A DNA stretch of 43,890 nucleotides, taken from the IMG/VR virus record IMGVR_UViG_3300024518_001786, positions 1 to 43,890 of that record; one strand, given 5' to 3'. Origin of the DNA: a virus. Numbering within the stretch: the stretch's first letter is position 1; every line of letters begins with the position of its first letter. Positions 1 through 13,553 of this stretch are shown here, one piece after another. The notes beneath the pieces were generated by a model. It did not search any database and had not been told where the DNA came from. It was given only the letters and a program-made list of their open reading frames with translations. The position numbers and the translations under genes are program-made.

Positions 1-349
1 TGGTGACGATCATCAATGCCACGTAGACACCACCACAGGGCGAGAGTTTGCAGGCAACGGTGTGGACTTTGGCGATCCGAGTGTCCCTCACATCTACGAG
101 TGTGTCTATGACGGCGTGACGGACACTGATCTGGAGTCGATTGTTGACGGGGTTTCTCAGGCAACCAACACTAGCGTAGGACCAATCGGCAACACCTACT
201 CAGAGCTGTCCATCGGCGCTGCTAACACCGACACCGTGTGGCCGCTGGAGGGCTGGATTGCGGCGTTCTGGCTTAGTGACGCCGAGGAGAGCAGTGGAGA
301 CCGGGACACGATTCGGGCGTGTCTCAATACCCGGTTTTCGATTTACTGA
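1..349 (+). CDS. Partial lectin/LamG-like tail fibre or appendage protein (C-terminal end)
   Basis: The reading frame is open from base 2, so the gene begins outside the window; about 115 C-terminal residues are visible. The pattern looks like the last strands of a concanavalin A-like (LamG) jelly roll: a segment ending SELSIGA, then EGWIAAFWLSD, then an acidic stretch and RACLNTRF. Such domains sit in phage fibres and appendages and bind carbohydrate, which would fit the glycosidase encoded 1.5 kb downstream. The stop overlaps the next start (TGATG). The fold assignment comes from pattern alone. A generic beta-sandwich virion protein is the alternative. Confidence 0.5.
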   Translation, partial: GDDHQCHVDTTTGREFAGNGVDFGDPSVPHIYECVYDGVTDTDLESIVDGVSQATNTSVGPIGNTYSELSIGAANTDTVWPLEGWIAAFWLSDAEESSGDRDTIRACLNTRFSIY

Positions 350-570
350 TGCCGCTAAAGACCACCGCAAAACTCACCCAAGCAGCGCTAGCCTGCGCCC
401 AGCGGACAGAGGCTGACATATCTGGACGCCACGACGGAGACGCGGCCAACAAGGGCGGCACCGCTGGCCTGGCTATCAACCGAGTGCAGTGGGGCTGGTG
501 GTGGTCTCTGCTCATCGCTGGATTCATCGAGGACATCTACCTGACATTTGAGCCAAGGAGGAACGAATGA
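349..570 (+). CDS. Small membrane-associated phage protein, unknown function
   Basis: A 73-residue protein starting at the ATG that overlaps the previous stop as TGATG. A GTG ten codons upstream (319) is open but would lie inside the fibre gene. The N-terminal half is polar; near the C-terminus a tryptophan-rich segment (VQWGWWWSLLIAGFIEDIYL) could form one membrane helix. The last bases overlap the next start (ATGA at 567), so translation is coupled through this small operon. I do not recognise the family. A role in lysis or attachment to the membrane is possible only by context. Confidence 0.6.
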   Translation: MPLKTTAKLTQAALACAQRTEADISGRHDGDAANKGGTAGLAINRVQWGWWWSLLIAGFIEDIYLTFEPRRNE

Positions 571-1355
571 GAACCACACTTTGCTTGCTGACCGCGTTGC
601 TGCTGTGCGCGTCAGCGCAGGCGCAGTACATACCGGGCGGGCCGATTTCGGTGCAGATCCCGGTCACCAACGCTGGCCCAGACGGGCCTGCCGACGCGAC
701 AGTGGCGGTGACGTTTCCGCCTGAGATGACCCTGGTCACCTGGACGTGTTCAGCACTGCCGCCAGCCGGGTGTACCGGTGGCAGCGGTGACATCCTCGAC
801 ATGGCAGTCATCCCCAACGGGGTCACCATCACCTACGACGTCGACGCGGTGATCGCCATCGGCGCGAGCGGCAACATTCTCATCGGCTACGACGTCACGC
901 TCACCACACCCGTCGCCATCGACCCCGATCTTGGCAACAACTCGACCACGACGTCGACCACGATCACGATCCCGCCAGTGATGGATCTCCAGATGGGCAC
1001 TCCGATCATCACCGCAGCAGCCAGTGCCTCGATGCACTACTTCGACCTGTGGACCAACGACAGTGTGAATGCTCAGCTCGGCATCTGCGACATCGACGCC
1101 TGCCCCGAGGACCAGCGGGCAAGTATCGTCCAGCGCGTCAACGAGTCGTGTAAGGCACCGGGCAATACCATCGGCGACACGGGCCTGGCCTCAAGCTGCA
1201 AGATCGCCCTCATGGCCGAGAGCTGTACCATGTGCGCGGGCGGCGGTCAGGGTGGTGCGTTCCCGTTCCAGTATAGTCGCATCAACGTCTGCGACCCGGT
1301 GTACGTCAACGGTGCGATCTGCCCCAACGGCGGATCACTGGAGTTCGGCACGTAG
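567..1355 (+). CDS. Secreted DUF11-like, cysteine-rich protein
   Basis: 262 residues. The start is fixed by an AGGAGG ten bases upstream and the ATGA overlap. The N-terminus is a textbook Sec signal peptide: Arg at position 2, a hydrophobic core LCLLTALLLCASA and a likely cleavage at AQA-Q. Residues about 25-125 resemble the DUF11 beta-sandwich repeat (NAGPDGPADATVAVTFPPEM, then a GNNSTT ending), usually found in exported surface proteins. The remaining part has about ten cysteines (CDIDAC, SSCKIA, SCTMC), suggesting disulfides outside the cytoplasm. A signal peptide is unusual for a virion gene, so the protein is probably exported from the infected host cell. The function is unknown. Confidence 0.7.
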   Translation: MRTTLCLLTALLLCASAQAQYIPGGPISVQIPVTNAGPDGPADATVAVTFPPEMTLVTWTCSALPPAGCTGGSGDILDMAVIPNGVTITYDVDAVIAIGASGNILIGYDVTLTTPVAIDPDLGNNSTTTSTTITIPPVMDLQMGTPIITAAASASMHYFDLWTNDSVNAQLGICDIDACPEDQRASIVQRVNESCKAPGNTIGDTGLASSCKIALMAESCTMCAGGGQGGAFPFQYSRINVCDPVYVNGAICPNGGSLEFGT

Positions 1356-1411
1356 GTTCTGACCAGTGTGTAAGCCACCAGACGGCGGGAGTCTGAACGA
1401 GGAGGTGAGGC

Positions 1412-1483
1412 ATGAGTGTGACGAGTGTGAGAACGGAGACGATCGCCGTCACAGCCCACGACCGACCACGGGGCTGGGCATGA
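1412..1483 (+). CDS. Possible 23-residue leader peptide coupled to the next gene
   Basis: An ATG with the strongest SD site in this stretch (GAGGAGGTGAGGC) opens a 23-codon frame starting MSVTSV and ending GWA. Its TGA overlaps the ATG at 1480 as ATGA. The downstream gene has no good SD of its own, so this mini-frame may bring ribosomes to it by re-initiation. It is too short to judge by composition. A longer downstream protein starting at GTG 1366 in the other frame is the competing model. Confidence 0.4.
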   Translation: MSVTSVRTETIAVTAHDRPRGWA

Positions 1484-1860
1484 ACGGCAGGGCGGTGGCT
1501 GTCCTGTCGTTCCTTCTTGGGGCTGGTTCGTTCTTTCTGATCTGGGTGTTCTCGCCTATCAGCGAGGTCAAGCAGAAGGCTGGCGAGCAGGGGGTGACGC
1601 TGGAGTTTCTAGCCAGGGGTCAGGCGACGTTGTTGGAGACCGAAAAGGCCCACGTCGAGCTGTTGAGTAGCATTGGCCTGGTCGACGCCGACCACAAGCT
1701 GCGGATCGAGATTCTGGAGAAGTTCGCAGCCGGACACGCGGCCGACAGTTGCGAGACGACCATGTGCAACGAGATGCGAGCCAACATCGCATTCTTGAAC
1801 GAGCGTGTGGCCGAGTTCCACGGTGCAGTCCGACGACCGGTGACGGAGCCCAGTGGATGA
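1480..1860 (+). CDS. Small single-pass membrane protein with coiled-coil ectodomain
   Basis: 126 residues from the ATG that overlaps the mini-frame's stop. The first 30 residues hold one strong membrane helix (VAVLSFLLGAGSFFLIWVF). A charged, Glu/Leu-rich segment that could form a coiled coil follows, then two cysteines (DSCETTMC). One N-terminal helix plus a helical soluble part is compatible with a spanin-like or holin-associated protein, but nothing identifies it. A GTG start at 1366 would add 38 charged residues lacking membrane or domain character, so I prefer 1480. The stop overlaps the next start (GGATGA). Confidence 0.6.
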   Translation: MNGRAVAVLSFLLGAGSFFLIWVFSPISEVKQKAGEQGVTLEFLARGQATLLETEKAHVELLSSIGLVDADHKLRIEILEKFAAGHAADSCETTMCNEMRANIAFLNERVAEFHGAVRRPVTEPSG

Positions 1861-2891
1861 TCCGCATTACCGATCTCACCAACAACGACTGGGGGCTAGC
1901 CCTTTACCGGTGCTACCTGACCGGCGATGTGACCGAGCTGCTGGAGATGAAGGCCGAAGTGGAGGGGCGCGGCTACCGGTTCTCGCAGCGCATCATCATC
2001 GACGCCAGCGAAGGTCTCGACCGGCCTATGTTCCTGTTCTGGGGCGGGCACCCGTGGCTGGACGCACCGATCGACCCGGGGTTTACACCGCGCTGGGCGA
2101 TGGACAAGTGCGTCGAGCTGGGCATCTACATACTGCCGGTCGTCTCTACCTTCCACCCGGCCAAGTCCGGCGAGTACAACGACGATCGACACGACGTCGC
2201 ACAGTCGGTGATCAATGCTCTCTGGACCGCCATCATCAGCGGGTGGGGTCTGTGGATCGTCGCCTGTCAGGTCGACAACGAACCCTACACTGGCGGCGAC
2301 GCGTACCCCAGAGATGAGTACGAGAGACGGGTGCGGCGTGAGGCCGCCCATATTCAGGCGCTTGGTCTCAAAGTCATTGCTACCAAGTTCAGCGGCGCTG
2401 GTGTCAGCCGTGACGAGCACATGGCGATCGGCGGCATCACGCATGAGTTCCCGCCGCTCTACGGCACCAAGACCATCACCGAGGCGTGGGAGCGGCCCGG
2501 TGTCAAGGACGGCTACGTCAGGTACACCGAGTGGGCGCTCGACCATGAGTCGCTGTGGCTGATCGGCTACAACTTCGGTTCCAAGTTCATCAAGCGTAAG
2601 CTCAGGTGGGGTGAAGGCTGGTACGAGACATTCCTGTGGGACGAGCGCGACCTGACGCCCAAGGGCGCAAAGGTGCTCGACATGCTAGGGGCAGTAGCAG
2701 ACCCGCCACCACCGCCACCACCCGACCCGGTCGACGCGGCGTATGTCCTGGTCAATGACGTGCTGGTCGAGTGTGACATCCACGACGACATGCACGTCCG
2801 AGGGTCAGAGCGCAAACAGTTCCGAGAGAAGATACGAGGTCCTCTAAAACAGGTGCGACAGCTCCTCAAGCACCCTACAGGTGGTAGCTAG
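1857..2891 (+). CDS. TIM-barrel glycoside hydrolase-like protein (clan GH-A type)
   Basis: 344 residues from the ATGA-coupled start. Alternating beta/alpha segments fill residues 1-275. CQVDNEPYTGG at about 138-147 matches the Asn-Glu-Pro motif carrying the acid/base Glu (E142) of clan GH-A glycosidases; E197 in ITHEFPPLYG is a candidate second carboxylate. A polyproline hinge (seven Pro, about 283-289) links to a charged 55-residue tail. There is no signal peptide. Likely roles are degradation of a host surface polysaccharide as part of the virion or cell-wall hydrolysis at lysis. The position between fibre genes and the portal favours a virion enzyme. The substrate cannot be told. Confidence 0.55.
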   Translation: MIRITDLTNNDWGLALYRCYLTGDVTELLEMKAEVEGRGYRFSQRIIIDASEGLDRPMFLFWGGHPWLDAPIDPGFTPRWAMDKCVELGIYILPVVSTFHPAKSGEYNDDRHDVAQSVINALWTAIISGWGLWIVACQVDNEPYTGGDAYPRDEYERRVRREAAHIQALGLKVIATKFSGAGVSRDEHMAIGGITHEFPPLYGTKTITEAWERPGVKDGYVRYTEWALDHESLWLIGYNFGSKFIKRKLRWGEGWYETFLWDERDLTPKGAKVLDMLGAVADPPPPPPPDPVDAAYVLVNDVLVECDIHDDMHVRGSERKQFREKIRGPLKQVRQLLKHPTGGS

Positions 2892-2910
2892 CTTGACAGT
2901 TAGATACCAC
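2881..2910. repeat. Imperfect inverted repeat around TTGACA before the portal
   Basis: GTGGTAGCTA (2881-2890) and TAGATACCAC (2901-2910) are complementary at nine of ten positions, with a ten-base centre containing TTGACA. It spans the end of the glycosidase gene and the 109-base gap before the portal. It may be an RNA hairpin or a protein site. I found no acceptable -10 element 16-18 bases downstream, so I do not call a promoter. Confidence 0.35.
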
Positions 2911-2941
2911 ATATGGTGGACTTGCCCACAGGAGAGCGCCA

Positions 2942-3001
2942 GTGGTCCTGGTGGCATCAAGGGCCTACGAGGCGGACCCGGAGCGCCGAGGTACTAGCTG
3001 A
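2942..3001 (+). CDS. Possible 19-residue leader frame upstream of portal
   Basis: GTG preceded by AGGAGAG opens a 19-codon frame beginning MVLVASRAYEADP. Its TGA overlaps the portal ATG as TGATG. The portal lacks its own clear SD, so coupled re-initiation is reasonable, as proposed for 1412-1483. An ATG frame from 2913 in another register runs into the portal gene and looks like noise. Very short, so low confidence. Confidence 0.25.
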   Translation: MVLVASRAYEADPERRGTS

Positions 3002-4506
3002 TGGCGCTACCCGTGACAACTCCCACCAACGGACGCGGCAGACTACGTCGCGGACTCCACGCGTTGTCACTAGCGCTCGACCGCTACAACATGCGGACCC
3101 AGGCAGGGCTCACGTACGGCACCGACCGGGACCTGTACGCCACCCTTGGCTACAAGACAAAACTAGAGCCCAAGGACTACCGAGAGAGATACGAGCGGGG
3201 GGGTATCACCGAGCGCATCGTCGAGGCGTACCCGGGCGGCACATGGTCGGGCGGCGCTACCATTGTCGAGGACCCCAAGCCGGACGTCGACACACCTTTT
3301 GAGCTGGCCGTCGTCGAGCTGTTCAAGCGACTAGATGTGTGGTCGATCGTTCAGCGAGCGGACATACTCGCCGGGTTAGGTAGATATTCAGTGCTGCTGA
3401 TCGGTGAGGCTGGAAAGCTCAACACCGAGCTGAAACGGGTCACGTCGGCCGACAAGGTACTGTACCTAACCCCGTACAGCGAGGAGTTTGCAAAAATCGA
3501 GAAGTCGGTCTCATCGACGTCAGATCCGAGGTTTGGTCTACCCGAGCTGTACACGCTGACGTTCGGCGATACCAAGCTCAACCGCAAGGTCCACCACAGC
3601 CGGGTCATTCATGTGGCCGAGGGGTTGCTTACTAACGATGTCATGGGCAAGCCGCGACTGCGGGCGGTGTGGAACTACCTGGACGACCTGGAGAAGATCG
3701 TAGGCGGTGGCAGTGAGGCCGCATGGAAGAGAGCCGACCCAGGTATCCAAGCCGACCTGGACCCGGACGTCGAGATGGACACCGACGACGAGGCCGCGCT
3801 AGAGGACGAGATCGACGAGTACATGCACGGTCTGCGCAGATTCATGCGGACTCGGGGTGTCAACCTCAACATGCTACAGACTCAGGTGGCAGCGTTCGGC
3901 GGCAACGCGACGGCCGTGTTGCAGCTTATCAGTGCTACCACCGGCATACCTCATCGTATACTCACCGGGTCGGAACGGGGCGAGCTGGCCAGTACCCAGG
4001 ACCGCAACAACTGGAACGACCGCATCACCGAGCGGCGACGTGACTTTGCGATACCGCTAGTGTCGGCGCTGATCGACAAGCTCATCGCCATAAATGCTCT
4101 ACCCGAGCCCAGCGAGTACGAGGTGACGTGGCCCGAGATCGAGGAGCTGGACGAGTCGGAGAAAGCGACCGTCACCGCTACCTTGGCCGGGGCCAACCAG
4201 AAACAGAAGGCCGCCGAGGGCGTGATCATCGTCACCGGCAACGAGATACGAGAGTCGGTGCTAGGACTAGAGCCGCTGGCCGAGGTGGTGGATGACGCCG
4301 ACGACGCGCTGCCCGAGGACGACGAGGACCCGGACGAGATAGATACTGACGATACTGACGACACCACCGACATGCGGGCTGACCGCGACCCGAGCGAGAT
4401 AGGCGCGGTTCAGCGAGTCGCCGACAAGCACCGACTCAAGGTAGCGCGTAGCTTCGTGTCTCACTGGGACGAGGTGGCTGAGGTCCTGGGCGAAAAAAAA
4501 AACTAG
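3001..4506 (+). CDS. Portal protein (DUF1073 / phage portal family)
   Basis: 501 residues. It is the expected dodecameric ring at the capsid vertex through which DNA enters and leaves. Family evidence includes the N-terminal region with a DYRERYERGGITERIVE stretch, the central KVHHSRVIHVAEG segment, and the conserved LTGSERGELASTQDRNNW motif (residues about 321-338). This is the DUF1073 family, which shares its name with anti-CBASS Acb1-like entries; the portal role is clear from context. The C-terminus is very acidic (many Asp/Glu and DTDD repeats) and ends E-K-K-N at an A10 run, where slippage could fuse it to the next protein. It is followed by MuF, protease and capsid, the usual head order. 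Confidence 0.92.
   Translation: MALPVTTPTNGRGRLRRGLHALSLALDRYNMRTQAGLTYGTDRDLYATLGYKTKLEPKDYRERYERGGITERIVEAYPGGTWSGGATIVEDPKPDVDTPFELAVVELFKRLDVWSIVQRADILAGLGRYSVLLIGEAGKLNTELKRVTSADKVLYLTPYSEEFAKIEKSVSSTSDPRFGLPELYTLTFGDTKLNRKVHHSRVIHVAEGLLTNDVMGKPRLRAVWNYLDDLEKIVGGGSEAAWKRADPGIQADLDPDVEMDTDDEAALEDEIDEYMHGLRRFMRTRGVNLNMLQTQVAAFGGNATAVLQLISATTGIPHRILTGSERGELASTQDRNNWNDRITERRRDFAIPLVSALIDKLIAINALPEPSEYEVTWPEIEELDESEKATVTATLAGANQKQKAAEGVIIVTGNEIRESVLGLEPLAEVVDDADDALPEDDEDPDEIDTDDTDDTTDMRADRDPSEIGAVQRVADKHRLKVARSFVSHWDEVAEVLGEKKN
4493..4502 (+). other. A10 homopolymer / candidate -1 slip site at portal end
   Basis: The portal frame reads GAA AAA AAA AAC TAG. This contains the heptamer A AAA AAA in the X XXY YYZ phase. 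A -1 shift continues AAA CTA GAG CTG ATA CGA ATG without a stop, directly into the MuF gene at 4518. MuF itself has no good SD. The result would be a portal-MuF fusion of about 1128 residues. Polymerase slippage or a miscounted base in the homopolymer would give the same outcome. Confidence 0.45.
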
Positions 4507-4517
4507 AGCTGATACGA

Positions 4518-6386
4518 ATGGTTGAGCACAACAACAGCATGGGAATTGCCCGGGTCGTGCTCGGTGCCGTAGAGGCTGCCGAGGTTGACTTCGACGGGCT
4601 AGTTGCCGACCAGTTGCTGTCGACACTGGACGACGGCGGCATCGCCTCGCTGGGTGTAGTGAGGGGCAGGGGCTCGTGGACTCCCGAGGGTGAGACGCTG
4701 AAAACAGCACGGCTGTCGGCACCGATCAGATCAGCTCAGTTTCACCCGACGTTCAACACCGTCAATCCCCGGTCCGTCGAGTGGGCTAGTCGCCGATCGG
4801 CGGCACTCATTCGTGAGGTATCGGCTGAGACCAGAGCCGGTGTACGCGCCATGATCGCTGCCGGTATGGTCGAGGGCATACCACCGCGTCGACTGATCAA
4901 CCTGATCGTACGTACAGTGGGACTACGGACTGACCAGGTGCGTGCGGCAGTCAACCTGTCAGCACGTCTAGCCGCAGCAAAGCCCGGGCAGATAGTCAAA
5001 GCAGGCGCACTCAAGCTCAAGGTCCCCAAGTCCGGCGCGAGCAAGTCGTGGATCAGCGCTCGACAACGCCAGTACATGGCGCGGCTACGTAGACAACGAG
5101 CCCTACTCATTGGCCGTACCGAGACGATGCACTCGGCCAACGAGGGCCAGCGACAGCTCTGGTTGCAGTCACGCGATAGGGGCGACCTGCCGTCGAGCGC
5201 CAAGCGTGAGTGGATCGTCACCCCCGACGAGAGACTGCGCGAGAAACACGCCGCGATGATCGGCCAGGTAGTCGGTATCGAGGAGTCATTTGTAGACCCC
5301 GAGGGCGGTGAGATCGAGCCTGGTGAGGAGCCCCACTGCCGCTGCGGTCAGGGCATCGCCAGCGACGCGTCGGTAGCTCGGTCGCAGTCCCAGCTACACG
5401 TAGGCCGCGAGACCAAGCGACTGGTCGGTGACGCGGCCATGACGGGTAAGCAGCTCGGACCGGCTGACATATTCAATTCGCTGCGCCGGTCGGAACAAAA
5501 GAAAATCAACGGGTACATAGAGCGTGCTGCTGCCAACGAGGCCGAGTACAAGACGATCATCGAGTCAGCAGCCAAGCGGCTGAAAATGACCACCGGAGAT
5601 TTTCTTGATCCGCAACCTGGCAAGTACTTTTTCGGTCCTCTCAAGCAGGCCGACCGCATCGCTGAGAAAGCCATCATTGACTACAAGGGAGCACTCAACG
5701 AGGTCAGCGACGTGCTGCGTATGACCTACATGGTACGTGATCCCGACGACGCGATGAGGCTGTACAGACTGCTCGACGACATCGACGACCCGGTCGGACT
5801 CAAGAATCGAATGCTGGAGCCCGGCATGGGCGGGTACCGGGATGTGATATTCAAGGTCACTCTCAAGGACGGCATGAGAGCCGAGGTACAGATCAACACT
5901 CGGTCGATGCTGGTTGCCAAGGAGGGGCCCGGTCACAAAATCTACGAGCGCATGAGAGTGTTGCGAGACGACAGCGCCGAGTGGGCCGCGCTCAACAAAG
6001 AGTCCGAGGAGCTGTACGGCAGGGCATGGGCCGAGGTGTGCCGAGAGTTTCCGCAGTTCGCTGGCTGCAAGGCGATTACGGTAGGCGGCGAGTCGTACCG
6101 ACATGCTGCCAGCGCACCCCTCTACTACCTCAAGGAGTCCGACATTCTCTATCGTCGCGAGGACGGCGACCCGGTGCGAATGCCCGACCAGGTGCTATGG
6201 CCGACCGGGTGGGCTCCGCTCATCGGGCAGTTGTCAATCTCACCATACGCTCACCCCACACCTACTACCCGAGGGTCAGCCGACGGCGGTGCTGACCCGC
6301 TACTACTCACCAAGCTGTCGCGCATCACAGTGGACGAAGCGGTCAGCATAGCTACTGGCAGAGGACTGCCTACCGACAAGTGGTAA
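4518..6386 (+). CDS. MuF head morphogenesis protein fused to RelA/SpoT-like domain
   Basis: 622 residues. Residues about 80-280 form the Mu F-like minor head domain: helical N-part, then LIGRTETMHSANEGQ, EWIVTPDERLREKH and the terminal EPHCRCGQG. Residues about 330-520 resemble a RelA/SpoT nucleotidyltransferase (pyrophosphokinase) domain: a basic KQADRIAEKA segment, NEVSDVLRMTYMV with D398 and R401, GGYRDVIFKV with Y440, EVQINT with E456, and GHKIYERMR at about 472. These match the Asp, Tyr and Glu of the synthetase fold. About 100 more residues follow. MuF proteins are packaged and can be ejected, so the domain may be a virion-delivered toxin or alarmone synthetase; that activity is inference. 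No strong SD is visible at ATG 4518. Confidence 0.8.
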   Translation: MVEHNNSMGIARVVLGAVEAAEVDFDGLVADQLLSTLDDGGIASLGVVRGRGSWTPEGETLKTARLSAPIRSAQFHPTFNTVNPRSVEWASRRSAALIREVSAETRAGVRAMIAAGMVEGIPPRRLINLIVRTVGLRTDQVRAAVNLSARLAAAKPGQIVKAGALKLKVPKSGASKSWISARQRQYMARLRRQRALLIGRTETMHSANEGQRQLWLQSRDRGDLPSSAKREWIVTPDERLREKHAAMIGQVVGIEESFVDPEGGEIEPGEEPHCRCGQGIASDASVARSQSQLHVGRETKRLVGDAAMTGKQLGPADIFNSLRRSEQKKINGYIERAAANEAEYKTIIESAAKRLKMTTGDFLDPQPGKYFFGPLKQADRIAEKAIIDYKGALNEVSDVLRMTYMVRDPDDAMRLYRLLDDIDDPVGLKNRMLEPGMGGYRDVIFKVTLKDGMRAEVQINTRSMLVAKEGPGHKIYERMRVLRDDSAEWAALNKESEELYGRAWAEVCREFPQFAGCKAITVGGESYRHAASAPLYYLKESDILYRREDGDPVRMPDQVLWPTGWAPLIGQLSISPYAHPTPTTRGSADGGADPLLLTKLSRITVDEAVSIATGRGLPTDKW

Positions 6387-6391
6387 AACAC

Positions 6392-7957
6392 ATGACCGAG
6401 AAACGATACCTCAGACTCACCGGGCTGGTAGACGTCGCGTCGATACGTACGGCCGAGTTCGACGACGAGACGCACGTGGTCGTGCCTGTCATCGCCTTGG
6501 TAGGCGACGCGGTGGTGCGACCGATGAACGCAAAGGGCTACGAGCTGGTGCCAGCCGAGCGACTAGCCGTAGCGCCCAAGGGCTGGAACGGTCGACCGGT
6601 AGTCCCCGACCATCCTGACGGCGGTACGTCGTCGGCGAACGAGCCCAGCATACTGGAGTCGTTCGCATTCGGTCAGATGTTCAATACGGTTTTCGAGGAC
6701 GGCAAGCTCAAGACAGAGGCGTGGCTGTCGCCGTCGAGAGCCGAGAAGGTAGGCCAGGAGGCTGTCGACGTCATCTCTCGGTGTGAGGCCGGTGAGCTGG
6801 TCGAGGTCAGCGTCGGTGCCTACGTCTCAGCGGAGAAACAGCCAGGCGTACACGACGGCAGACGCTACGAGTACGTGTGGCGAGATATAGTGCCTGACCA
6901 CCTGGCGATGCTGCCCGAGGGCGCAGAGGGGGCGTGCAGCGTCGAGATGGGGTGTGGGGGTCCGAGACTCAACCGAGCAGCCGAGCTACGCGCCGCGATC
7001 AAAGGAGACGACATGAGAGAGCCCACGATGTTTTCAAAGCTGCTCAGCGCCATGGGGTTTCGCCGAGCACAGGAAGGTACCAGCGACAGCGAGATCCACA
7101 GTGCGCTATGGGACGCACTACGCGCTGTCGAGCCGGGGTTCGACTACATCGCCGACGTGTTCCAAGACGATGGCACGGTCATCTACGTCACCATACCCGA
7201 GGACACCTTTCTGATGTTCCGTCGCTCGTTCTCGGTCAATGACGACGGCGAGGTCACCATCAGTGACGACGCCGAACAGGTCGAACCTGTGACAGAGTAC
7301 AAACCCGTAGCCGCCGAGTCGGGTGATGACGGGGCTACTGACGACCCGGGCAATGACCCGGTAACCGCCGCGCAAGGCGCTGGGGACGAAGATGACGCGT
7401 CCGACAGCGATTGTCCGTGCAATAACACAGGAGAAAAAAACATGACTGAGAAGATCAGGGAGCTGGTCGCACGGTTGATCTCCAACGAGGCGTCACCGTT
7501 CGACAGTGAGGACGAGGAGACCCTGGAGGGTTTCTGTGAGAAAAAGCTGGAGGCCATGGCTGCCAGCTTTGAGGAGGACGACGACGGCGATGACGAGGGT
7601 GTCGACGACGACGCTATCGACGTCGACGACGACACCGATCCGAAGCCCAAGACGGAGGACGAGTGGATGGCAGAGGCTCCCGAGCCGCTGCGGTCGATGG
7701 TCCTCGACTACAAAGCCGAGGAAGCGTCACGGCGGGAGGCTCTCATCGAGTCGCTCAGCAAGGCGCAGACCGTCATCAGCAAGGAAGCGCTGGAGACCAA
7801 GTCCACCGAGGATCTCCGCGCTCTCGCCGAGCTGACCGAGGTCGAGACCGATGCGTATATCGGTCGTGGCGTAGTCCCCGACGACGCTGCCAACGATCCG
7901 CCGAGGCCGTACTCGATCGCTCTCAACAAAGGCGACGACGCCGCCGTCGAGAACTAG
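6392..7957 (+). CDS. Prohead protease (DUF2213-like) fused to scaffolding domain
   Basis: 521 residues from ATG 6392 (GTG 6380 is possible; neither has a strong SD). Residues 1-190 match the DUF2213 phage protease family: VPVIALVGDAVVRPMNAKG, RPVVPDHPDGG with H74, ELVEVSVGAYVSAE with S140, and a C-terminal DHLAMLPEG segment. H74 and S140 are the likely catalytic pair. The protein then becomes acidic and low-complexity, and from residue 351 is a helical, Glu-rich scaffold-like region ending near VVPDDAANDPP. This is the classical protease-scaffold fusion: the scaffold shapes the procapsid and the protease removes it. A nested start at 7442 supports the layout. Confidence 0.85.
   Translation: MTEKRYLRLTGLVDVASIRTAEFDDETHVVVPVIALVGDAVVRPMNAKGYELVPAERLAVAPKGWNGRPVVPDHPDGGTSSANEPSILESFAFGQMFNTVFEDGKLKTEAWLSPSRAEKVGQEAVDVISRCEAGELVEVSVGAYVSAEKQPGVHDGRRYEYVWRDIVPDHLAMLPEGAEGACSVEMGCGGPRLNRAAELRAAIKGDDMREPTMFSKLLSAMGFRRAQEGTSDSEIHSALWDALRAVEPGFDYIADVFQDDGTVIYVTIPEDTFLMFRRSFSVNDDGEVTISDDAEQVEPVTEYKPVAAESGDDGATDDPGNDPVTAAQGAGDEDDASDSDCPCNNTGEKNMTEKIRELVARLISNEASPFDSEDEETLEGFCEKKLEAMAASFEEDDDGDDEGVDDDAIDVDDDTDPKPKTEDEWMAEAPEPLRSMVLDYKAEEASRREALIESLSKAQTVISKEALETKSTEDLRALAELTEVETDAYIGRGVVPDDAANDPPRPYSIALNKGDDAAVEN
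7442..7957 (+). CDS. Nested scaffolding protein from internal start
   Basis: An internal in-frame ATG is preceded by AGGAG and seven A, a strong initiation site inside the protease gene. It would yield a 171-residue acidic, helical protein starting MTEKIRELVARL, equal to the C-terminal part of the protease fusion. This parallels lambda C/Nu3, where the scaffold is made in excess from an internal start. The same sequence also forms A AAA AAC in the protease frame; a -1 slip there would add His-Asp and stop at 7447-7449, giving protease without scaffold. The internal start is well supported; the slip is speculative. Confidence 0.7.
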   Translation: MTEKIRELVARLISNEASPFDSEDEETLEGFCEKKLEAMAASFEEDDDGDDEGVDDDAIDVDDDTDPKPKTEDEWMAEAPEPLRSMVLDYKAEEASRREALIESLSKAQTVISKEALETKSTEDLRALAELTEVETDAYIGRGVVPDDAANDPPRPYSIALNKGDDAAVEN

Positions 7958-7971
7958 GACCCGCGAGGGTC
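7958..7971 (+). other. Short hairpin with GCGA tetraloop before the decoration gene
   Basis: GACCC-GCGA-GGGTC: a five-pair stem capped by a GNRA tetraloop, placed between the protease stop and the SD (AAGGAG) of the decoration gene. No U-tract follows, so it is not a terminator. It could stabilise or process the mRNA of the highly expressed capsid genes. Confidence 0.45.
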
Positions 7972-7985
7972 GATAAGGAGCTATC

Positions 7986-8447
7986 ATGGCAGTGACAAAG
8001 AACAACCCCAACACCATCCACTTGGGCGGCCCGATTACCCTGATCAACGAGTACGTTGCGCTCGGGGCGATCACGCCGGGAATGCTGGTCGAGTACCACA
8101 ACGATTCCGGCACCCTCAAGTGGGATGTCCACGACGCGGCTGCCGATGTGCAGATCCCGTACGTGGCACTCAATCAGGCCGAACTCAACAAGGAGGTCGA
8201 CGACGCGTATGCTGCCGGTGACCTCGTCGCCGTTGGCGCGTTGACAGTCGGCTCGCAGTTCTGGGGGATCATTCCTTCGGGGCAGAACATCAGCCCGGCC
8301 GCTTACCTACAGTCGAATGGCGACGGTAAGCTCAAGGCCGCAACCGCAGACACGGCCGCCGCCGCTGTCGCCAAGTTCCAGGCAGTCGAAACGTCTGGTG
8401 GCGCAGTGACCGCCGACACTCGTATTCGCGTCGAAGTGGTCCGCTAG
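7986..8447 (+). CDS. Head decoration protein
   Basis: 153 residues with a strong SD (AAGGAGCTATC). It sits directly between the protease/scaffold and the major capsid gene, where lambda-D-type or DUF2190-type decoration proteins are found. The sequence is small, Ala/Gly/Val-rich and predicted mainly beta, with a GDLVAVGAL segment and a C-terminal TRIRVEVVR ending typical of capsid cement proteins. It would bind the outer capsid lattice after expansion. The function rests on position and general character; no catalytic motif is present. Confidence 0.7.
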   Translation: MAVTKNNPNTIHLGGPITLINEYVALGAITPGMLVEYHNDSGTLKWDVHDAAADVQIPYVALNQAELNKEVDDAYAAGDLVAVGALTVGSQFWGIIPSGQNISPAAYLQSNGDGKLKAATADTAAAAVAKFQAVETSGGAVTADTRIRVEVVR

Positions 8448-8471
8448 GCCCCGACAGAGAGAGGAGAAAAA

Positions 8472-9485
8472 ATGAGTAACCATGCAACACGCTTCCTGTC
8501 GGGAGACGCCCGAGGCCGGGCCCCGATGCCTGGACTGGGCAACGCCCTACTCCGCTGCAACTCGATTGACGAGCTGCGCACCTTGGCACCTTTGCCGAAG
8601 GACGCGCAGGAACTCATCGACCGCGCAGTGGTCAGAGTCGGTCTCGATCGGCTCATCATCGTGCAGGACCTCATGGCCGAGGGCCTGACCTATTCGCTGC
8701 CGGACCCGCTGTCGGTGATGGAACTCTACTGGGAGCGTGCCGACGAGATCGGTGACGCCCGCCGTGTGATGCTTCCGCACGCACGCGGTGAGGACCAGCT
8801 CGCCGAGTTCGACGGTCAGCGCATTCCGATCTACGCAACCATTGACGACTTCACGCTCAACATTCGCACCCTGCGTGCGTCCGAGCGTGCCGGTGCGCCA
8901 CTCGACACTTTCCAGGTCGAGCAGGCAACCCGTCGCGTCAATGAGTCGATCGAGGATGCAGCGATCAACGGAGCAGGACTGGCGGTCGGCGGCAACAGCG
9001 CCCCGGGTCTGCTCGACGCTCCCAACAAGGGCACGTCCATCTACACGGGCGGCGAGGCTTGGGACGCGTCCGGTCACACTGGCGAGGAGATCCTCGGTGA
9101 TGTGCTGGCGATGGTCGACGTCGCGCAGGCGGCCAAGAAGTACGGCCCCTACAACCTGTACATTCCCACCGAGTACGGCAACAAGCTGAACGCCGATTTC
9201 AAGGCCAACAGCGCTCTGACCATCCGTCAGCGCCTGGAGGAGCTGGAGGTCGGTGGTCGCAACCTGCGCATCCGTGTGGCAGACCTGTTGCCGGACGACC
9301 GCACCGCCCTGGTGCAGATGACCTCTGACGTCATTGACGTCATCGTCGGCCAGGAGCCTACGGTCATCTCGTGGGAGAGCGGCGATGGGTTCGTGCGTTA
9401 CTTCATCGTGATGGCGTTCGTGGTCCCGCGTGTACGCGACGACTACGACGGCAACAGCGGCATCGTTATCGGCTACATCAGCTAA
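8472..9485 (+). CDS. Major capsid protein, encapsulin-like HK97 fold
   Basis: 337 residues with a strong SD (GAGAGAGGAGAAAAA). Position after protease, scaffold and decoration protein identifies the major capsid protein. The middle segment (ASERAGAPLDTFQVEQATRR, then ESIEDAAINGAG and a glycine-rich SAPGLLD) resembles encapsulins of the Linocin M18 type (A-R-R-x-E...ED..I..G....GI), which share the HK97 fold. In this phage it must be the virion shell because a portal and scaffold accompany it. No peroxidase or other cargo gene is present. Confidence 0.85.
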   Translation: MSNHATRFLSGDARGRAPMPGLGNALLRCNSIDELRTLAPLPKDAQELIDRAVVRVGLDRLIIVQDLMAEGLTYSLPDPLSVMELYWERADEIGDARRVMLPHARGEDQLAEFDGQRIPIYATIDDFTLNIRTLRASERAGAPLDTFQVEQATRRVNESIEDAAINGAGLAVGGNSAPGLLDAPNKGTSIYTGGEAWDASGHTGEEILGDVLAMVDVAQAAKKYGPYNLYIPTEYGNKLNADFKANSALTIRQRLEELEVGGRNLRIRVADLLPDDRTALVQMTSDVIDVIVGQEPTVISWESGDGFVRYFIVMAFVVPRVRDDYDGNSGIVIGYIS

Positions 9486-9534
9486 ATAGCGAGGCCCTGT
9501 CTCGATGAACAAACCGAGCACAAGGGAGGTAGGT

Positions 9535-9759
9535 ATGCTCGTCAGGCTGATCACCAAAGAAGGCAGTCACACGTACCAGTGTGAGCACGTAGAAGTTCTC
9601 GAAAGTGACGAAGGGGTCAGGGTGTCGGTACTCCCCAAGGGGCCGACACTCCGACTGCCAGAGGACGGAGAGAGAATCTACATGATGAACGATCGAGGAG
9701 ACACGGTGGACAGCTACCGCTGGCCGCCAAAGGTACCCAAGGAGGTAGCACATGAGTAG
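9535..9759 (+). CDS. Small hypothetical protein after capsid
   Basis: 74 residues from the ATG preceded by GGGAGGTAGGT; an earlier ATG at 9505 lacks an SD. Predicted mostly beta (MLVRLITKEGSHTYQCEHVE, then a DGERIYMMND segment). It lies between the capsid and the connector genes and overlaps the next start by eight bases. I do not recognise it. Its position suggests a head-associated or head-completion accessory role. Confidence 0.6.
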   Translation: MLVRLITKEGSHTYQCEHVEVLESDEGVRVSVLPKGPTLRLPEDGERIYMMNDRGDTVDSYRWPPKVPKEVAHE

Positions 9760-10105
9760 GAGCCCGTACAGGTTGATTTCCGGTCGTCACGGTAGGTTTG
9801 AGGATCTGCCAGGCGGCAAAAAGAACGTCGTCTATGGCCCCGGTGACATCATCGGACTGACACCCGCCGAGGCAAAGAACCTTGCCGGTCGTGTCGTTCC
9901 ACACACCGAGACGTCAGCGGCCGACGCCAAGGAGTGGGAGTCGGTAGTCAGCGGGTCGAACGCTCGCGAGCTGGTCGGTATCATCAAGGAGCTGGACGAC
10001 GCCGACGACATCGCTGCTCTGCGACAGGCAGAGGAGGCGAGAAGTAGACCGCGATCGAGCGTGCTGAAAGCAGCCGACACGAGGCTGGCCCAGCTCGCCG
10101 AGTAA
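9752..10105 (+). CDS. Hypothetical head-region protein
   Basis: 117 residues with SD AAGGAGGTAGCAC. The N-terminal 50 residues look like a small beta domain (a VVYGPGDIIGLTPAEAKNLA segment); the rest is helical, charged and ends in AADTRLAQLAE. Similar small proteins often sit between the capsid and the first connector. Translation is coupled to the preceding gene by an eight-base overlap. No catalytic or metal site is seen, and the exact role is not assigned. Confidence 0.65.
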   Translation: MSRSPYRLISGRHGRFEDLPGGKKNVVYGPGDIIGLTPAEAKNLAGRVVPHTETSAADAKEWESVVSGSNARELVGIIKELDDADDIAALRQAEEARSRPRSSVLKAADTRLAQLAE

Positions 10106-10117
10106 GGAGACATCGCG

Positions 10118-10462
10118 ATGACAGCTACGTACGAGCCGTCACTACCGACTGACAGGGACTGGCTGCGGCTGACTATCGGTGACACCGCGACGGCTAGTGC
10201 GTTACTACAGGACGAGGAGATCGACGCGGTACTGACTGAGGAGGCCAACAAGCACCTTGCCGCAGCCGAATCGCTGTCGATACTCCGCACGAGGTGGAAC
10301 TCTCAGGGCGCGGGCGTGCTGACCAAACAGGTGTCGAAGCTGCGTATCAGCTACGGCACCGACTCGTCAGCGGCAGAGGCACTCGACGCACGTATCAAGC
10401 AACTACGAGCCCGAGGCGCGTATCTGCTGTCGCCCACACCTGGAGTGCTCAAAGTGTTGTAG
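10118..10462 (+). CDS. Head-tail adaptor (connector) protein
   Basis: 114 residues, mainly helical. The start DRDWLRLTIGDT followed by LLQDEEIDAVL is the recurring pattern of phage head-tail adaptor proteins (HK97 gp6 / SPP1 gp15 type), which bind below the portal and extend the channel. The C-terminal half has long helices (AAEALDARIKQLRARG). SD is AAGGAGACATCGCG. Its place after the capsid gene agrees with this role. Confidence 0.75.
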   Translation: MTATYEPSLPTDRDWLRLTIGDTATASALLQDEEIDAVLTEEANKHLAAAESLSILRTRWNSQGAGVLTKQVSKLRISYGTDSSAAEALDARIKQLRARGAYLLSPTPGVLKVL

Positions 10463-10473
10463 GAGGTAGGTAA

Positions 10474-10680
10474 ATGTCGATGGTCGAAACATCGCGAGGA
10501 CTGGTCCGTACGGTAGTGACCCTCACCCTGGTCGGCACCATGTGCGGGTGCGTGATCCTGTTCGCAGTCACTGGTGCGAAGGAAGCGCTAGAGGCCGCAT
10601 CGTTCATCGGTGCCCCGGCCGGGTTTGTCATCAACGCGTGGTTTGAGGCGAGACGGCAGGAGCGGGCGAATGGGGGCTAA
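10474..10680 (+). CDS. Small two-helix membrane protein (holin candidate)
   Basis: 68 residues with SD TAGGAGGTAGGTAA. Two probable membrane helices are visible: TVVTLTLVGTMCGCVILFAV and a second, weaker one around FIGAPAGFVINAWF, followed by a basic tail. Size and topology suit a class II holin, but many phages have similar small membrane proteins of unknown use, and no endolysin is adjacent. It overlaps the next gene by 11 bases. Confidence 0.55.
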   Translation: MSMVETSRGLVRTVVTLTLVGTMCGCVILFAVTGAKEALEAASFIGAPAGFVINAWFEARRQERANGG

Positions 10681-11083
10681 GTGGGTAGGGTTGCCGCTCG
10701 GGTTGGAGTTGGTCGGAGGACTGAGGAAAGCGATCTGGCGTACAGCCAGGGGGCTGACGTTCCTTTCCAAACACGGCCTGTGTAACGTACCTGCCCGATG
10801 GGTGACGGACCTGACGTCGATCCCCTGGTGGCTGGTGTGGAAACGACGCGAGGGTGATCACACACCGGCATCGGTCATTCACGATTGGTGCTACGCCAAG
10901 GGGTATGTGATCGGTGGGTTTGACGACAAGGTGCCGATCACTCGTAAGCAGGCAGATCGTATCTACCTGGCCGCTATGCTGTCGCTGGGGGTGAGGCCGA
11001 GGGTAGCCAAGTTGATCTATCGAGGCGTGCGGCTGGGCGGGTTGCTCGTGTGGCGTAGATACCGGAGGCGAGATAGTGGCTGA
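10670..11083 (+). CDS. DUF1353-family phage protein
   Basis: 137 residues from ATG 10670, which lies in the preceding gene's end behind GCAGGAGCGGGCGA. The family pattern is clear: V-x-D-L-T-S-I-P (WVTDLTSIPWW), SVIHDWCYAKG, then ITRKQADRIYLAAMLSLGV. These Asp/His positions (D in VTDL, H and D in IHDW, D in QADR) are the conserved residues of DUF1353, whose biochemical role I cannot state. The C-terminus is very basic. Such genes are common in phage structural operons, often near lysis genes. Confidence 0.75.
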   Translation: MGAKWVGLPLGLELVGGLRKAIWRTARGLTFLSKHGLCNVPARWVTDLTSIPWWLVWKRREGDHTPASVIHDWCYAKGYVIGGFDDKVPITRKQADRIYLAAMLSLGVRPRVAKLIYRGVRLGGLLVWRRYRRRDSG

Positions 11084-11240
11084 CGCAACACTCGACATAG
11101 TCAAGGCGATGAGGCGCAAGACGATCACCGTGCAGCTCAAACGGGTGCCTGAGTTCAGGTTCCGAGTGAGAGTCGCCAAGCTGCTTATCCGGCTGGCGGG
11201 TCGAGTGCTGGGCGTCAACACTGAGGTAGTCGATGCCTAG
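11076..11240 (+). CDS. Small basic protein, unknown function
   Basis: 54 residues starting at GTG 11076 behind CCGGAGGCGAGATA and ending at 11240. It begins MADATLDIVKAMRRK and ends VLGVNTEVVDA. It overlaps its neighbours by eight bases on each side, the normal coupling in this operon, which supports it despite its size. The middle is basic and amphipathic (FRFRVRVAKLLIRLAGRVLG) and could lie on a membrane or bind nucleic acid. The family is not recognised. Confidence 0.6.
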   Translation: MADATLDIVKAMRRKTITVQLKRVPEFRFRVRVAKLLIRLAGRVLGVNTEVVDA

Positions 11241-11577
11241 CGAGATAGTCAGCGACCTGGCCGACCTGATGTCGGAGACGCTGATTGCCACGCCCGGCTA
11301 CACTACCGGGTTCGGGGCGTTCGTAGCGTCGGGCACGGTGCTGAATATCTCGTGTTTGATCGAGGGAGACATCAAGCAAGTACGCGACCACTCAGGCGAC
11401 GAGGCGGTGTCCAGCGTCCAGGCGCATCTCGATGGTGACTACAGTCTGACGACTACCAAGCACCGCTACACGCTGCCGTCCCGGTTCCCTGATCCGAGGA
11501 CCGACATCGAAGCCATCGCGATAGAGTACGCGTCGGACGAGAACGGAGCCCACCACGCGGTGGTAATGCTGCCATGA
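11233..11577 (+). CDS. Probable head closure / stopper protein
   Basis: 114 residues with a mixed helix and beta pattern. The N-terminus describes a helical segment (SDLADLMSETL), then beta strands ending in EAIAIEYASDENGAHHAVVM. This C-terminal pattern (S-D-E-x-G-x-H-H-A-V-V) recurs in small connector proteins next to head-tail adaptors. The likely role is closing the head channel or joining head to tail. Evidence is position plus general pattern, so a different neck protein is possible. The next gene overlaps by four bases. Confidence 0.55.
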   Translation: MPSEIVSDLADLMSETLIATPGYTTGFGAFVASGTVLNISCLIEGDIKQVRDHSGDEAVSSVQAHLDGDYSLTTTKHRYTLPSRFPDPRTDIEAIAIEYASDENGAHHAVVMLP

Positions 11578-11807
11578 GCGAGCCGTGGATAGAACCCGAC
11601 TGGGTGGTCCCTGACTGGATCGCCACTACCGTGCCCGCGTCGACGGCTCTGTTGGCCGGGGTAGGCGACCACACCTACGAGGCGTCGCACGTGGTGCCTG
11701 TGCATGACGAAGTAGTCAGCGCAGATACTCACTCGACCACAGGAGGGTTGTCGACTCACCAGCAGCTCGCCGGTCGAGCGTCCCACTCATACGGAGCCAG
11801 CCTATGA
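11574..11807 (+). CDS. Small virion-region protein with WIExDW motif
   Basis: 77 residues, ATGA-coupled to the previous gene. Residues 5-16 read WIEPDWVVPDWI, a tryptophan series with five-residue spacing. Almost the same series occurs in the tail-tip protein at 23353 (WIESDWIEEDWI). The rest is low in hydrophobics and rich in His/Ser/Thr. I do not recognise a family. The shared motif suggests a common binding partner or the same assembly contact. Confidence 0.55.
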   Translation: MSEPWIEPDWVVPDWIATTVPASTALLAGVGDHTYEASHVVPVHDEVVSADTHSTTGGLSTHQQLAGRASHSYGASL

Positions 11808-12124
11808 CCGTCAGCACCGACACCATCACGATCTACAAAGGTGAGGACCTAGACCTCGATTTCACCATGGACCCGGTCGAGGACATCACCGGCTGGGGCA
11901 TCGAGCTGAACGTCAAGGGAGCGTCCGGCGTGCTGATCACCAAGACGGGAGTCATCGTCAGCGGCGCGGCCGGTACGTTTCAGTTTCCGCTCGTGGACAC
12001 CGACAGCGACTCGCTCAGGATAGGTATCTATCTCTACGACGTGTGGCGCACCGACGCGGGTGCCGAGAGAGTACTGGCGGTTGGCGACTTCGCGGTAGAG
12101 GATGTAGCAAGGGTTGTGGTGTGA
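11804..12124 (+). CDS. Beta-sandwich protein, BppU/Ig-like N-terminal type
   Basis: 106 residues, ATGA-coupled. Repeated short strands (TITIYKGEDLDLDFTM, GWGIELNVKG, then IGIYLYDVWRTDAG) resemble the N-terminal BppU-type or Ig-like modules in phage baseplate, fibre and head-fibre proteins. It ends in AVEDVARVVV. It directly precedes the sugar-modification cassette with a GTGA overlap and could be an exposed virion target of it; that is inference. Confidence 0.5.
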   Translation: MTVSTDTITIYKGEDLDLDFTMDPVEDITGWGIELNVKGASGVLITKTGVIVSGAAGTFQFPLVDTDSDSLRIGIYLYDVWRTDAGAERVLAVGDFAVEDVARVVV

Positions 12125-12630
12125 GAGCGTTTCTGGTCCTCGGGCCAGAGTCTACCGGTACGCGGCTTGCGACTCGCATACTGATGGCTGGTGGCTGTCA
12201 CGGGTCAGACGGGCACTACCAGCCGGTAGGTAACGGGTTTGGGGATCTCGACCCGGTGGTGTGGCGGCGCAGCGTGCCGCACAATGACACGTGGCCGAAG
12301 TTGTCCCAGCTCGTAGCCAAGTGTGGTGGTCGTGAGGTCCACGTCGTCATTACTGTACGCGACTGGTGGTGTACTGCCATGTCGCAGGTCGCTGTCGGTC
12401 ACGCCGAGACGCTGGAGCGAGCGATCGTCAATACACGCCGCGCCTACGGTCGGATTTTCTGCCAGGTGGCAACGCTGGGTATCCCGTACACCGTGCTCAG
12501 CTACGAGTCGTTCGTTCTCAACCCGCGAGAGACACAGACCGCACTACTACGATCACTCGGCTTACAGGTCCCTAGCGAGCTGGTGGTCATACGCAACGAG
12601 AACGACAAGCACTGGAGGACAGGTAGGTGA
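12121..12630 (+). CDS. Sulfotransferase-like P-loop protein
   Basis: 169 residues from GTG 12121 (GTGA overlap). The N-terminus MRAFLVLGPESTGTRLATRI is the phosphosulfate-binding loop pattern of sulfotransferases (G-x-x-S-x-G-T). The segment VVITVRDWWCTAMSQ at about 80-95 fits the 3'-phosphate-binding R-D-x(5,8)-S motif. At 169 residues it is shorter than most sulfotransferases, with the usual core but little else. Likely reaction: transfer of sulfate from PAPS to a sugar or protein. A different P-loop transferase is the alternative. It begins a six-gene overlapping cassette containing two glycosyltransferases. Confidence 0.6.
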   Translation: MRAFLVLGPESTGTRLATRILMAGGCHGSDGHYQPVGNGFGDLDPVVWRRSVPHNDTWPKLSQLVAKCGGREVHVVITVRDWWCTAMSQVAVGHAETLERAIVNTRRAYGRIFCQVATLGIPYTVLSYESFVLNPRETQTALLRSLGLQVPSELVVIRNENDKHWRTGR

Positions 12631-13553
12631 GCTATCAGGACGTGGTTGTGGACGGTGTACTAGTCAGGGGGCAGCGGGAGTGCGCTAGTCGGTGGGCGGC
12701 GATCAGTAAGGTGCTGGCGAAGTACGACCGGCGATTTACGGTGCTCGACCTGGGTGCCAGTGAGGGGTACTTCTCGCTGCGTGCCGCGTCGGAGTTCGAC
12801 TGTGTGGCGGTGATGATCGAAGGCGGTAAGCAGCTACTATCACTGTGCAGTGAGAACGTAGGACTCGACACCATACTGCTCCAGCGCCGGGTGAGCATTC
12901 GCGATCTGGAGCAGCTCGCTACCTGTGAGCACTTCGACGTCGTACTGGCACTCAACGTCCTGCATCATTTCGTCGAGCCCGAGCGGGTCGTGCGTGCGGT
13001 CATGTCGCTCGGTGACCACACCATCATCGAGACGCCAGCACCTGACGACAGCGGTGCGTGCGGACAAGCTGTCATACCAGAGCTACACAAGCTACTAGCC
13101 GACCGAGGCGGGGACCTGATCGCTACTACTCGGTCACATGTCAGTGACACCTACCGTCCCATGTGGCTGTTCGACACTCCCAAGCGGACGATCACCCGAG
13201 CCTACATCGACGTCCCGCCACGCGCTCCACTCGGGCCTGTGCGTATCGAGTCCACCTACGACTACAAACAGATCACGTTCGACCGCAAGTCCGAGACTAG
13301 ACCCTGGCTCCACGGCATCAACCTGCGCACCTACCAGATGCTGGGTGGGGCCTACCCGTTACCTGGTGACGTAGCCGACCAACTGGAGGCTGTCACCCTC
13401 AACGCCGATATACCCCACGGCGACATCCAACCGTGGAACTTCATCATGGACGGCGGCGACCTGTGGCTGATAGACGGCGGTGACGATCGCGCCATCTACG
13501 ACGACGTCAAGGGGCTGGCGGCTACCGTACTGTCGGTCAGGAGCATGGAGTGA
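12627..13553 (+). CDS. SAM methyltransferase fused to kinase-like C-terminal lobe
   Basis: 308 residues, GTGA-coupled. Residues 35-190 are a class I methyltransferase: motif I VLDLGASEGYFS at about 39-50, an acidic IEGG after strand 2, and ALNVLHHFVEP at the motif IV-post region. Residues about 255-300 contain HGDIQPWNF (H264, D266, N271) followed by LWLIDGGDD. This is the catalytic loop and metal-binding Asp of the aminoglycoside/choline kinase fold. The kinase N-lobe is not evident, so the C-terminal part may be a truncated or minimal kinase. It probably modifies a glycan made by the neighbouring genes. Confidence 0.75.
   Translation: MSYQDVVVDGVLVRGQRECASRWAAISKVLAKYDRRFTVLDLGASEGYFSLRAASEFDCVAVMIEGGKQLLSLCSENVGLDTILLQRRVSIRDLEQLATCEHFDVVLALNVLHHFVEPERVVRAVMSLGDHTIIETPAPDDSGACGQAVIPELHKLLADRGGDLIATTRSHVSDTYRPMWLFDTPKRTITRAYIDVPPRAPLGPVRIESTYDYKQITFDRKSETRPWLHGINLRTYQMLGGAYPLPGDVADQLEAVTLNADIPHGDIQPWNFIMDGGDLWLIDGGDDRAIYDDVKGLAATVLSVRSME

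Follow-up and report, generated by a model that had tools for sequence, protein, structure and literature searches.

A portal-adjacent MuF head protein with a C-terminal RelA/SpoT-type synthetase domain in an IMG/VR viral contig

Introduction

RelA/SpoT domains fused to MuF proteins are already in print (PMC3482391, Zhang 2012; PMC5512222, Iyer 2017; PMC5576092, Jamet 2017; PMC12226406). Jamet 2017 (PMC5576092) describes RelA-like domains as frequent among MuF toxins and reports that a small ORF follows 89.4% of 191 MuF toxin genes. Biochemistry is available in PMC12226406 and in the Bxa paper (PMC11699363), and according to PMC12226406 the Apk2 subgroup of these fusions is proven to make (p)ppApp and Apk2 domains are toxic when expressed in E. 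coli. Toxicity in E. coli is also described for exported synthetases expressed without their signal peptide (PMC12691689), in a study where MuF was present in 39 of 1,369 sequences. With regard to delivery, Iyer et al. propose that polyvalent-type proteins are packaged and injected (PMC5512222).

Here we analysed a stretch of viral DNA of 43,890 nucleotides (the window; IMG/VR record IMGVR_UViG_3300024518_001786, positions 1 to 43,890) that encodes a protein of this kind. Like Apk2, which is found in prophages of S. pneumoniae, M. haemolytica, P. multocida and B. caccae, it combines MuF with a C-terminal RelSpo synthetase domain in a gene of the head module. It differs from Apk2 in that the immunity genes iapK and aph1, which follow apk2 according to PMC12226406, are not seen in the window, in that its syn motifs read RMT, GYRDVI and IN instead of RYT, GxN and YH (only the motifs published in PMC12226406 were compared), and in that a tail of about 104 aa extends beyond the domain. 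We regard the locus as a known kind that is partly new, the new elements being its deviating syn3 motif, the absence of a visible immunity gene, the tail, for which no relatives were detected, and a RelSpo lineage shuffled between MuF subfamilies. A first-pass annotation of the same DNA had suggested a MuF-linked toxin; the RelSpo fold, the catalytic residues and the MuF carrier that it named are supported, although the idea is less new than it was rated at the time since MuF-RelA/SpoT fusions are published.

Results

A MuF head protein encoded directly downstream of the portal gene

The gene lies at 4518-6386 on the plus strand (622 aa, stop codon included in the coordinates), directly downstream of a portal protein gene at 3001-4506 on the same strand (PF06381 Phage_portal_3, E 3.4e-33). 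The core of its MuF domain was located at 5034-5345, plus strand (residues 173-276; Pfam PF04233, E 4.3e-9), and a match to PHROG 3517 spans residues 69-277 with an E-value of 3.2e-32. The downstream neighbour at 6392-7957, also on the plus strand, is a DUF2213 or head-maturation-protease-like gene, which matched PF09979 (E 2.8e-8) and the 'head maturation protease' families PHROG 12864, 530 and 2229 (best E 1.1e-7). Only 5 bases separate the stop codon of the MuF gene from the ATG of this neighbour at 6392, with no small gene between them, and the longest frame of the neighbour, starting from GTG 6380, would overlap the MuF gene. Codon scoring in 150-base steps over 4518-6317 placed the MuF frame best of six throughout, weakly so in the tail, with the last step crossing the gene boundary.

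The 622-aa protein is a portal-adjacent MuF head protein with a RelA/SpoT-type synthetase (SYNTH) domain. A MuF domain encoded directly 3' of the portal gene and carrying a C-terminal toxin-type domain is one of the marks of MuF polymorphic toxins, and it was found here. The first-pass description of a RelA/SpoT-like domain behind a normal MuF domain was thereby confirmed by PF04233, by PHROG 3517 and by the window-free profile described below.

The RelSpo domain and its catalytic motifs

The RelSpo domain was assigned to 5469-6071 on the plus strand (residues ~318-518, limits taken from the alignment with the closest relative, L110) by the window-free profile, an AlphaFold2 model, Foldseek and VIA matches, and 55-57% identity to the two copies in that relative. 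An extent of 5568-6080 had been proposed before; the domain is indeed there, but it is somewhat longer. The Pfam model PF04607 RelA_SpoT matched residues 375-475 at E 2.6e-4, but its 21.7 bits fall short of the gathering score of 27, and with Pfam alone the domain would be missed. A profile of 12 relatives from which the window was left out, searched against 631 six-frame window frames of at least 40 aa, retrieved the ORF at 124 bits (E 2.4e-37; next best E 1.3), and residues 330-515 scored 126.2 bits while the best of 5000 shuffles reached 9.2. Against PDB sequences, a 15-row profile that included the window matched Tas1 (6ox6, E 6.4e-22), YwaC (7.8e-11) and then other GTP pyrophosphokinases, and none of the 24 sequences matched at E<=1 was named FaRel or CapRel. 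The A6 profile matched Tas1 at E 4.7e-20, and the window protein searched alone reached Tas1 only at E 0.023.

In the syn2 context EVSDVLRMT, D398 (5709-5711, plus strand) is the predicted Mg-binding Asp, a role which we take over from the RSH family, and it is identical in all 15 aligned sequences, as is E456 (5883-5885, plus strand) of the syn4 motif EVQIN. The syn3 motif GYRDVI (residues 439-444; 5832-5849, plus strand) includes Y440 (codon 5835-5837). Nine columns are invariant across 14 relatives, K376, D398, G439, Y440, D442, A455, E456, Q458 and H473, and the window keeps all nine, while R380, K384, R401, K429, R431, G452, K468 and Y476 are kept in at least 90% of the aligned rows. D398, Y440 and E456 had already been pointed out as the catalytic residues; their positions were correct, and as all three belong to the nine invariant columns kept by the window they are the right residues. 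By its fold and by its syn motifs with the catalytic Asp and Glu, the domain is a member of the RelA/SpoT (RelSpo, SYNTH) superfamily. The domain is real and probably active.

One position of syn3 departs from Tas1, since I444 aligns by sequence with the Asn of GYSGVN. According to PMC12691689 (mBio), this Asn, N370 of Tas1 or N169 of SaEAS in the numbering of the paper, binds ATP; equating I444 with N370 assumes a 21-residue offset between the Tas1 chain and that numbering. With this Asn missing, the predicted activity could be reduced. RelV/EAS-like proteins mostly read GYRDLN here, PHB04-type proteins mostly GYRDLM, and polyvalent rows have L, K, S or other residues; the variation among phage relatives (M, L, S) means that the loss of the Asn is not unique to the window. 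The replacement at I444 would also suit a catalytically dead RelSpo fold that serves the head structurally or by binding nucleotides, the more so as not every C-terminal extension of a MuF protein has to be a toxin. We consider this improbable, however, because every column invariant in the 14 relatives is kept and because, of the differences from a near-identical contig, the two inside the catalytic motif lie at third codon positions and are synonymous.

That near-identical contig, IMGVR_UViG_3300024520_000613 (20 kb; L004, L111), shows 3 differences across the 19,995 window bases it covers, all of them within 415 bases (5840-6254) in the 3' half of the MuF-RelSpo gene. Two are the synonymous changes, which affect the codons for R441 and D442 in GYRD; the third is a single-base length change in a C-run that alters the last ~42 residues of the tail. 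These differences are either local variation or an assembly effect.

Structure model and predicted product

AlphaFold2 was run on 5469-6383 with 13 alignment rows (2 of the 15 earlier rows dropped, L078/L110 not in the alignment), and the first 200 residues were modelled with block-mean pLDDT of 71-95. Foldseek of the model against the PDB returned Tas1 first (E 5e-9), followed by small alarmone synthetases including SaEAS, with CapRel at 6.4e-5. In VIA, Tas1 gave Z 13.9 (rmsd 3.1, 169 aligned residues, 28% identity), followed by SasB/YjbM (5ded, 13.7), YwaC (13.3), RelP (13.0), CapRel (11.8), SaEAS (11.7) and FaRel2 (7.8); rows within 1 Z were counted as tied, so Tas1 and the SasB-type enzymes are tied. 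Among viral models, the three best matches came from uncultured Caudovirales phages and were RelA/SpoT or polyvalent-type proteins (E 7e-13 to 5e-11). A structure search had been suggested in the first pass as the check on the domain, and the synthetase fold was found by the model, Foldseek and VIA alike.

Tas1 (Apk1), a T6SS effector making (p)ppApp, is the nearest solved structure by sequence, and its motifs K..R...K, D..R.T, GY, E.Q.N and GHK.YE are common to the window protein. It differs in its delivery domain, in having GYSGVN in place of GYRDVI, and in that it was solved in complex with its immunity protein. The toxSAS toxins FaRel2, CapRel and PhRel have the same fold, with the lower Z values of CapRel and FaRel2 given above, and an adjacent antitoxin of their kind was not seen in the window. 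A tRNA 3'-CCA pyrophosphokinase, that is a translation toxin like FaRel2 or CapRel, would share this fold; yet it is outscored by Tas1 and the SAS enzymes and no antitoxin-type partner was seen in the window, which makes it, in our estimation, very improbable. Both an alarmone synthetase and a tRNA-pyrophosphorylating toxin had been put forward before, and with Tas1 nearest by sequence and CapRel and FaRel2 at lower Z, the first is favoured over the second. On sequence and model, we therefore lean to a predicted nucleotide alarmone synthetase rather than a tRNA pyrophosphokinase.

As to the product itself, the window protein has E-x-Q-x-N in common with Tas1 (ppApp) and GYRD in common with RelV/EAS-like rows (ppGpp). 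A slight lean to (p)ppApp as the putative product comes from Tas1, which among solved relatives is nearest in sequence and has the same Asn in E-x-Q-x-N. Alternatively, the protein could be a (p)ppGpp synthetase of the exported RelV/VpEAS type, carried by the virion instead of being exported by a signal peptide. The exported synthetases (RelV/VpEAS, SaEAS) share the SYNTH fold and, in RelV-like rows, the GYRD of syn3, and PMC12691689 describes them without an immunity gene and VpEAS/RelV as making (p)ppGpp; they have a Sec signal peptide where the window protein has MuF. GYRD is common to RelV/EAS-like proteins of ~256-269 aa from Vibrionaceae and other Pseudomonadota (L029, L005, L051-L062, L065), although by organism, length and leader they are putative RelV orthologues. 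These rows, however, read GYRDLN, GYRDMN or GYRDLK against GYRDVI in the window, the three aligned ones have EVQLH or EVQIH where the window has EVQIN with its Asn as in Tas1, and in the tree the window does not group with the EAS clade. We consider a (p)ppGpp synthetase of this type unlikely.

Relatives and movement between MuF subfamilies

The closest relative is L078/L110, an IMG/VR contig of 64.7 kb with two RelSpo copies that are 55% (220 columns) and 56.7% (210 columns) identical to the window domain. L110 has a giant ORF of at least 4547 aa (2-13642, minus strand), preceded by a terminase-like and then a portal-like gene, both recognised by eye. A profile built from nine MuF proteins of the phrog_7625 type matched its N-terminus at E 1.4e-56, while the window MuF reached 2.1 bits and E 0.0087, both E-values coming from a search of two sequences. 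Among Pfam models the L110 N-terminus had no MuF match at E 0.001, and BLASTP between the MuF parts of the window protein and L110 gave nothing better than E 1.2. Further along, the giant ORF has two stretches of zeta toxin and matches GNAT weakly (E 9.4e-5), and with a head-morphogenesis N-terminus, zeta toxin and GNAT it belongs to the MuF/polyvalent virion proteins described in PMC3482391 and PMC5512222. The window protein, by comparison, is short, its MuF is of another subfamily, and it has a single recognised effector domain, followed by the tail without detected relatives. A separate observation on L110 is that ~400 aa around each RelSpo copy are duplicated at 49.5% identity.

The occurrence of one RelSpo lineage, at 55-57% identity, on two MuF subfamilies indicates that the domain moves between head proteins. 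Shuffling of C-terminal domains between MuF types is another mark of MuF polymorphic toxins, and it was found both in L110 and in the halovirus Hardycor1, whose MuF protein has a different C-terminus. In this Hardycor1 protein (L032 5412-7382), an HExxH-like stretch, YHEFGHAAHH, was seen by eye in the C-terminal half, and Pfam returned nothing beyond MuF at E 0.05.

Frames of at least 1000 aa made up 28 of the 36 relative ORFs scanned, which came from 38 loci, several of them near-duplicates; frames of this length are of the polyvalent type for which Iyer et al. propose packaging and injection (PMC5512222), and most of them extend past the locus. The scan left out L013 and L025 as duplicates of L012 and L024, and L077 is the twin of the window. 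In the phage collection only Bordetella phage PHB04 matched the RelSpo domain (2 records), and among plasmids one record did. The first profile scan of genome contigs found no relative, and a second with the A4 profile found two, L029 and L030. At E<=1e-12, matches occurred in 3 of the 369 genomes searched in one class and in 15 of the 398 searched in the phylum around G001 (Acidovorax); of the 18 places in the phylum search, 13 hold frames of 256-269 aa resembling the exported RelV/EAS type, a label again based on organism, length and leader. A MuF fusion was evident in none of L030, L049, L050 (in part), L063, L066 and L067, and the search with phrog_7625 MuF matched 9 of 398 genomes, with RelSpo in none of those nine loci. 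The tree of 28 RelSpo domains, from which L078/L110 were absent, did not place the window, its nearest member being L012 (33%).

The C-terminal tail and the region downstream

The cassette of Bordetella phage vB_BbrM_PHB04 has a related RelSpo domain (31% identity) that adjoins the portal gene. In PHB04-type phages the RelSpo gene is accompanied by a ~70-aa gene and by one for an HD hydrolase (PF13328, E 3.3e-21 in L003 and 6.7e-18 in L008), and similar HD ORFs were recognised by eye in L015, L018, L019 and L020/L021 and in none of the ORFs read in L007 and L010. Their layout is that of apk2-iapK-aph1 as given in PMC12226406, but here RelSpo and MuF are not fused; in L008 and L010 the RelSpo gene is followed by a distinct MuF-like gene that has a cysteine motif (by eye; Pfam did not call that of L008). 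In PHB04 itself this apk2-iapK-aph1-like cassette, next to the portal gene, spans 4092-6357 of L003. It includes an immunity-like pair, whereas none was seen in the window.

The statement in the first-pass annotation that no obvious small antitoxin gene follows was upheld by the 5-base gap to the DUF2213-like gene, which comes next in place of a small immunity ORF, and by codon scoring up to 6317, which gave no other coding frame. A profile of HD hydrolases searched against the window frames gave a best E of only 1.2, and a profile of the PHB04-type small proteins gave as its best match a 118-aa frame at E 0.0095, which is weak and unrelated by alignment; no published IapK served as a probe. 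PADLOC found nothing on the window. An antitoxin-dependent toxin, which had been suggested, gained no supporting evidence, as no antitoxin was seen, and neither did a block on competing phages.

The C-terminal tail of ~104 aa (residues 519-622; 6072-6383, plus strand) has no detected relatives, with no match in Pfam at E 5 and only one at E 6 in the phage collection. It sits where PHB04-type phages have the separate ~70-aa gene after a related toxin, it resembles that protein by eye, and a RelSpo ORF was also present in all 14 loci with the small protein, some of which share contigs. These points would fit a fused IapK-like inhibitor, which would make the protein a toxin with built-in immunity. 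Against this, an HMM of 11 small proteins gave the tail -1.6 bits (rank 1886 of the 3330 reported among the tail and 5000 shuffles), hhalign gave E 0.083 over 9 unrelated columns, and pLDDT of the tail was mostly under 50 in the AlphaFold2 model of domain and tail and averaged 34 when the tail was modelled alone. On these results, a fused-immunity tail was rejected as unsupported and appears to us highly improbable. We give equally faint credence to a scenario in which the phage, perhaps virulent, has a virion-packaged alarmone synthetase that works without a separate immunity protein and whose tail would keep the enzyme off in the producer cell until the neighbouring head protease trims it at capsid maturation, the enzyme then being fired into the next host with the DNA.

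Host and completeness of the contig

The best portal match by coverage x identity was that of halovirus Hardycor1 (38.9%), with Brevundimonas phages at 39% over less of the protein, and the best capsid matches were to Brevundimonas phages (37-38%), with Hardycor1 at 29%. The Hardycor1 portal match might suggest an archaeal host, whereas the capsid matches favour Brevundimonas phages. MuF polymorphic toxins are associated with temperate phages; no integrase, repressor or terminase was named among the best 25 of 44 PHROG families for 57 ORFs, or among 10 families for 33 of these ORFs, the other 24 ORFs being covered by the first set. Since no terminase was named, the contig is probably incomplete. 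The twin contig begins only 19 bases before the left end of the window, so this end may be either a natural terminus or a break that both assemblies have in common. Elsewhere in the window, the minus-strand frame at 29711-32317 joins an N-terminal domain of the uracil-DNA-glycosylase superfamily (UDG E 4e-17) to a DNA polymerase A (Pol A E 1.3e-79) in a single protein.

Discussion

The reading that we prefer, and think reasonably probable, is that the protein is a purine-nucleotide 3'-pyrophosphokinase packaged in the virion and co-injected with the DNA, a MuF-borne RelSpo effector of a tailed phage. Points that count against it are Ile444 in place of an ATP-binding Asn, the Pfam score below its gathering cut-off, the unresolved placement in the tree and the absence of the small ORF that follows most MuF toxin genes in the survey of PMC5576092. 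From its family and gene order, the MuF half would place the protein in the procapsid beside the portal, and a few copies would be packaged and delivered along with the DNA into the next host cell. There, as is expected from the family, the SYNTH domain would transfer the beta,gamma-pyrophosphate from ATP to the 3'-OH of a purine nucleotide to yield (p)ppApp or (p)ppGpp. Purine nucleotides would be drained, or a stringent-like arrest of the host forced, at entry and before phage gene expression. A dedicated immunity gene may be dispensable in the producer cell, as the protein would be produced late and kept enclosed in capsids.

With 55-57% identity, the copies on another MuF subfamily show directly that effectors are shuffled between phage heads. 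Should the protein be active and injected, a head component would determine the alarmone levels of the host at the moment when infection begins, and it would separate a virion weapon acting on the infected cell from a toxin-immunity pair for bacterial competition. Because a visible immunity gene is lacking at this locus, that distinction between weapon and toxin-immunity pair is testable here.
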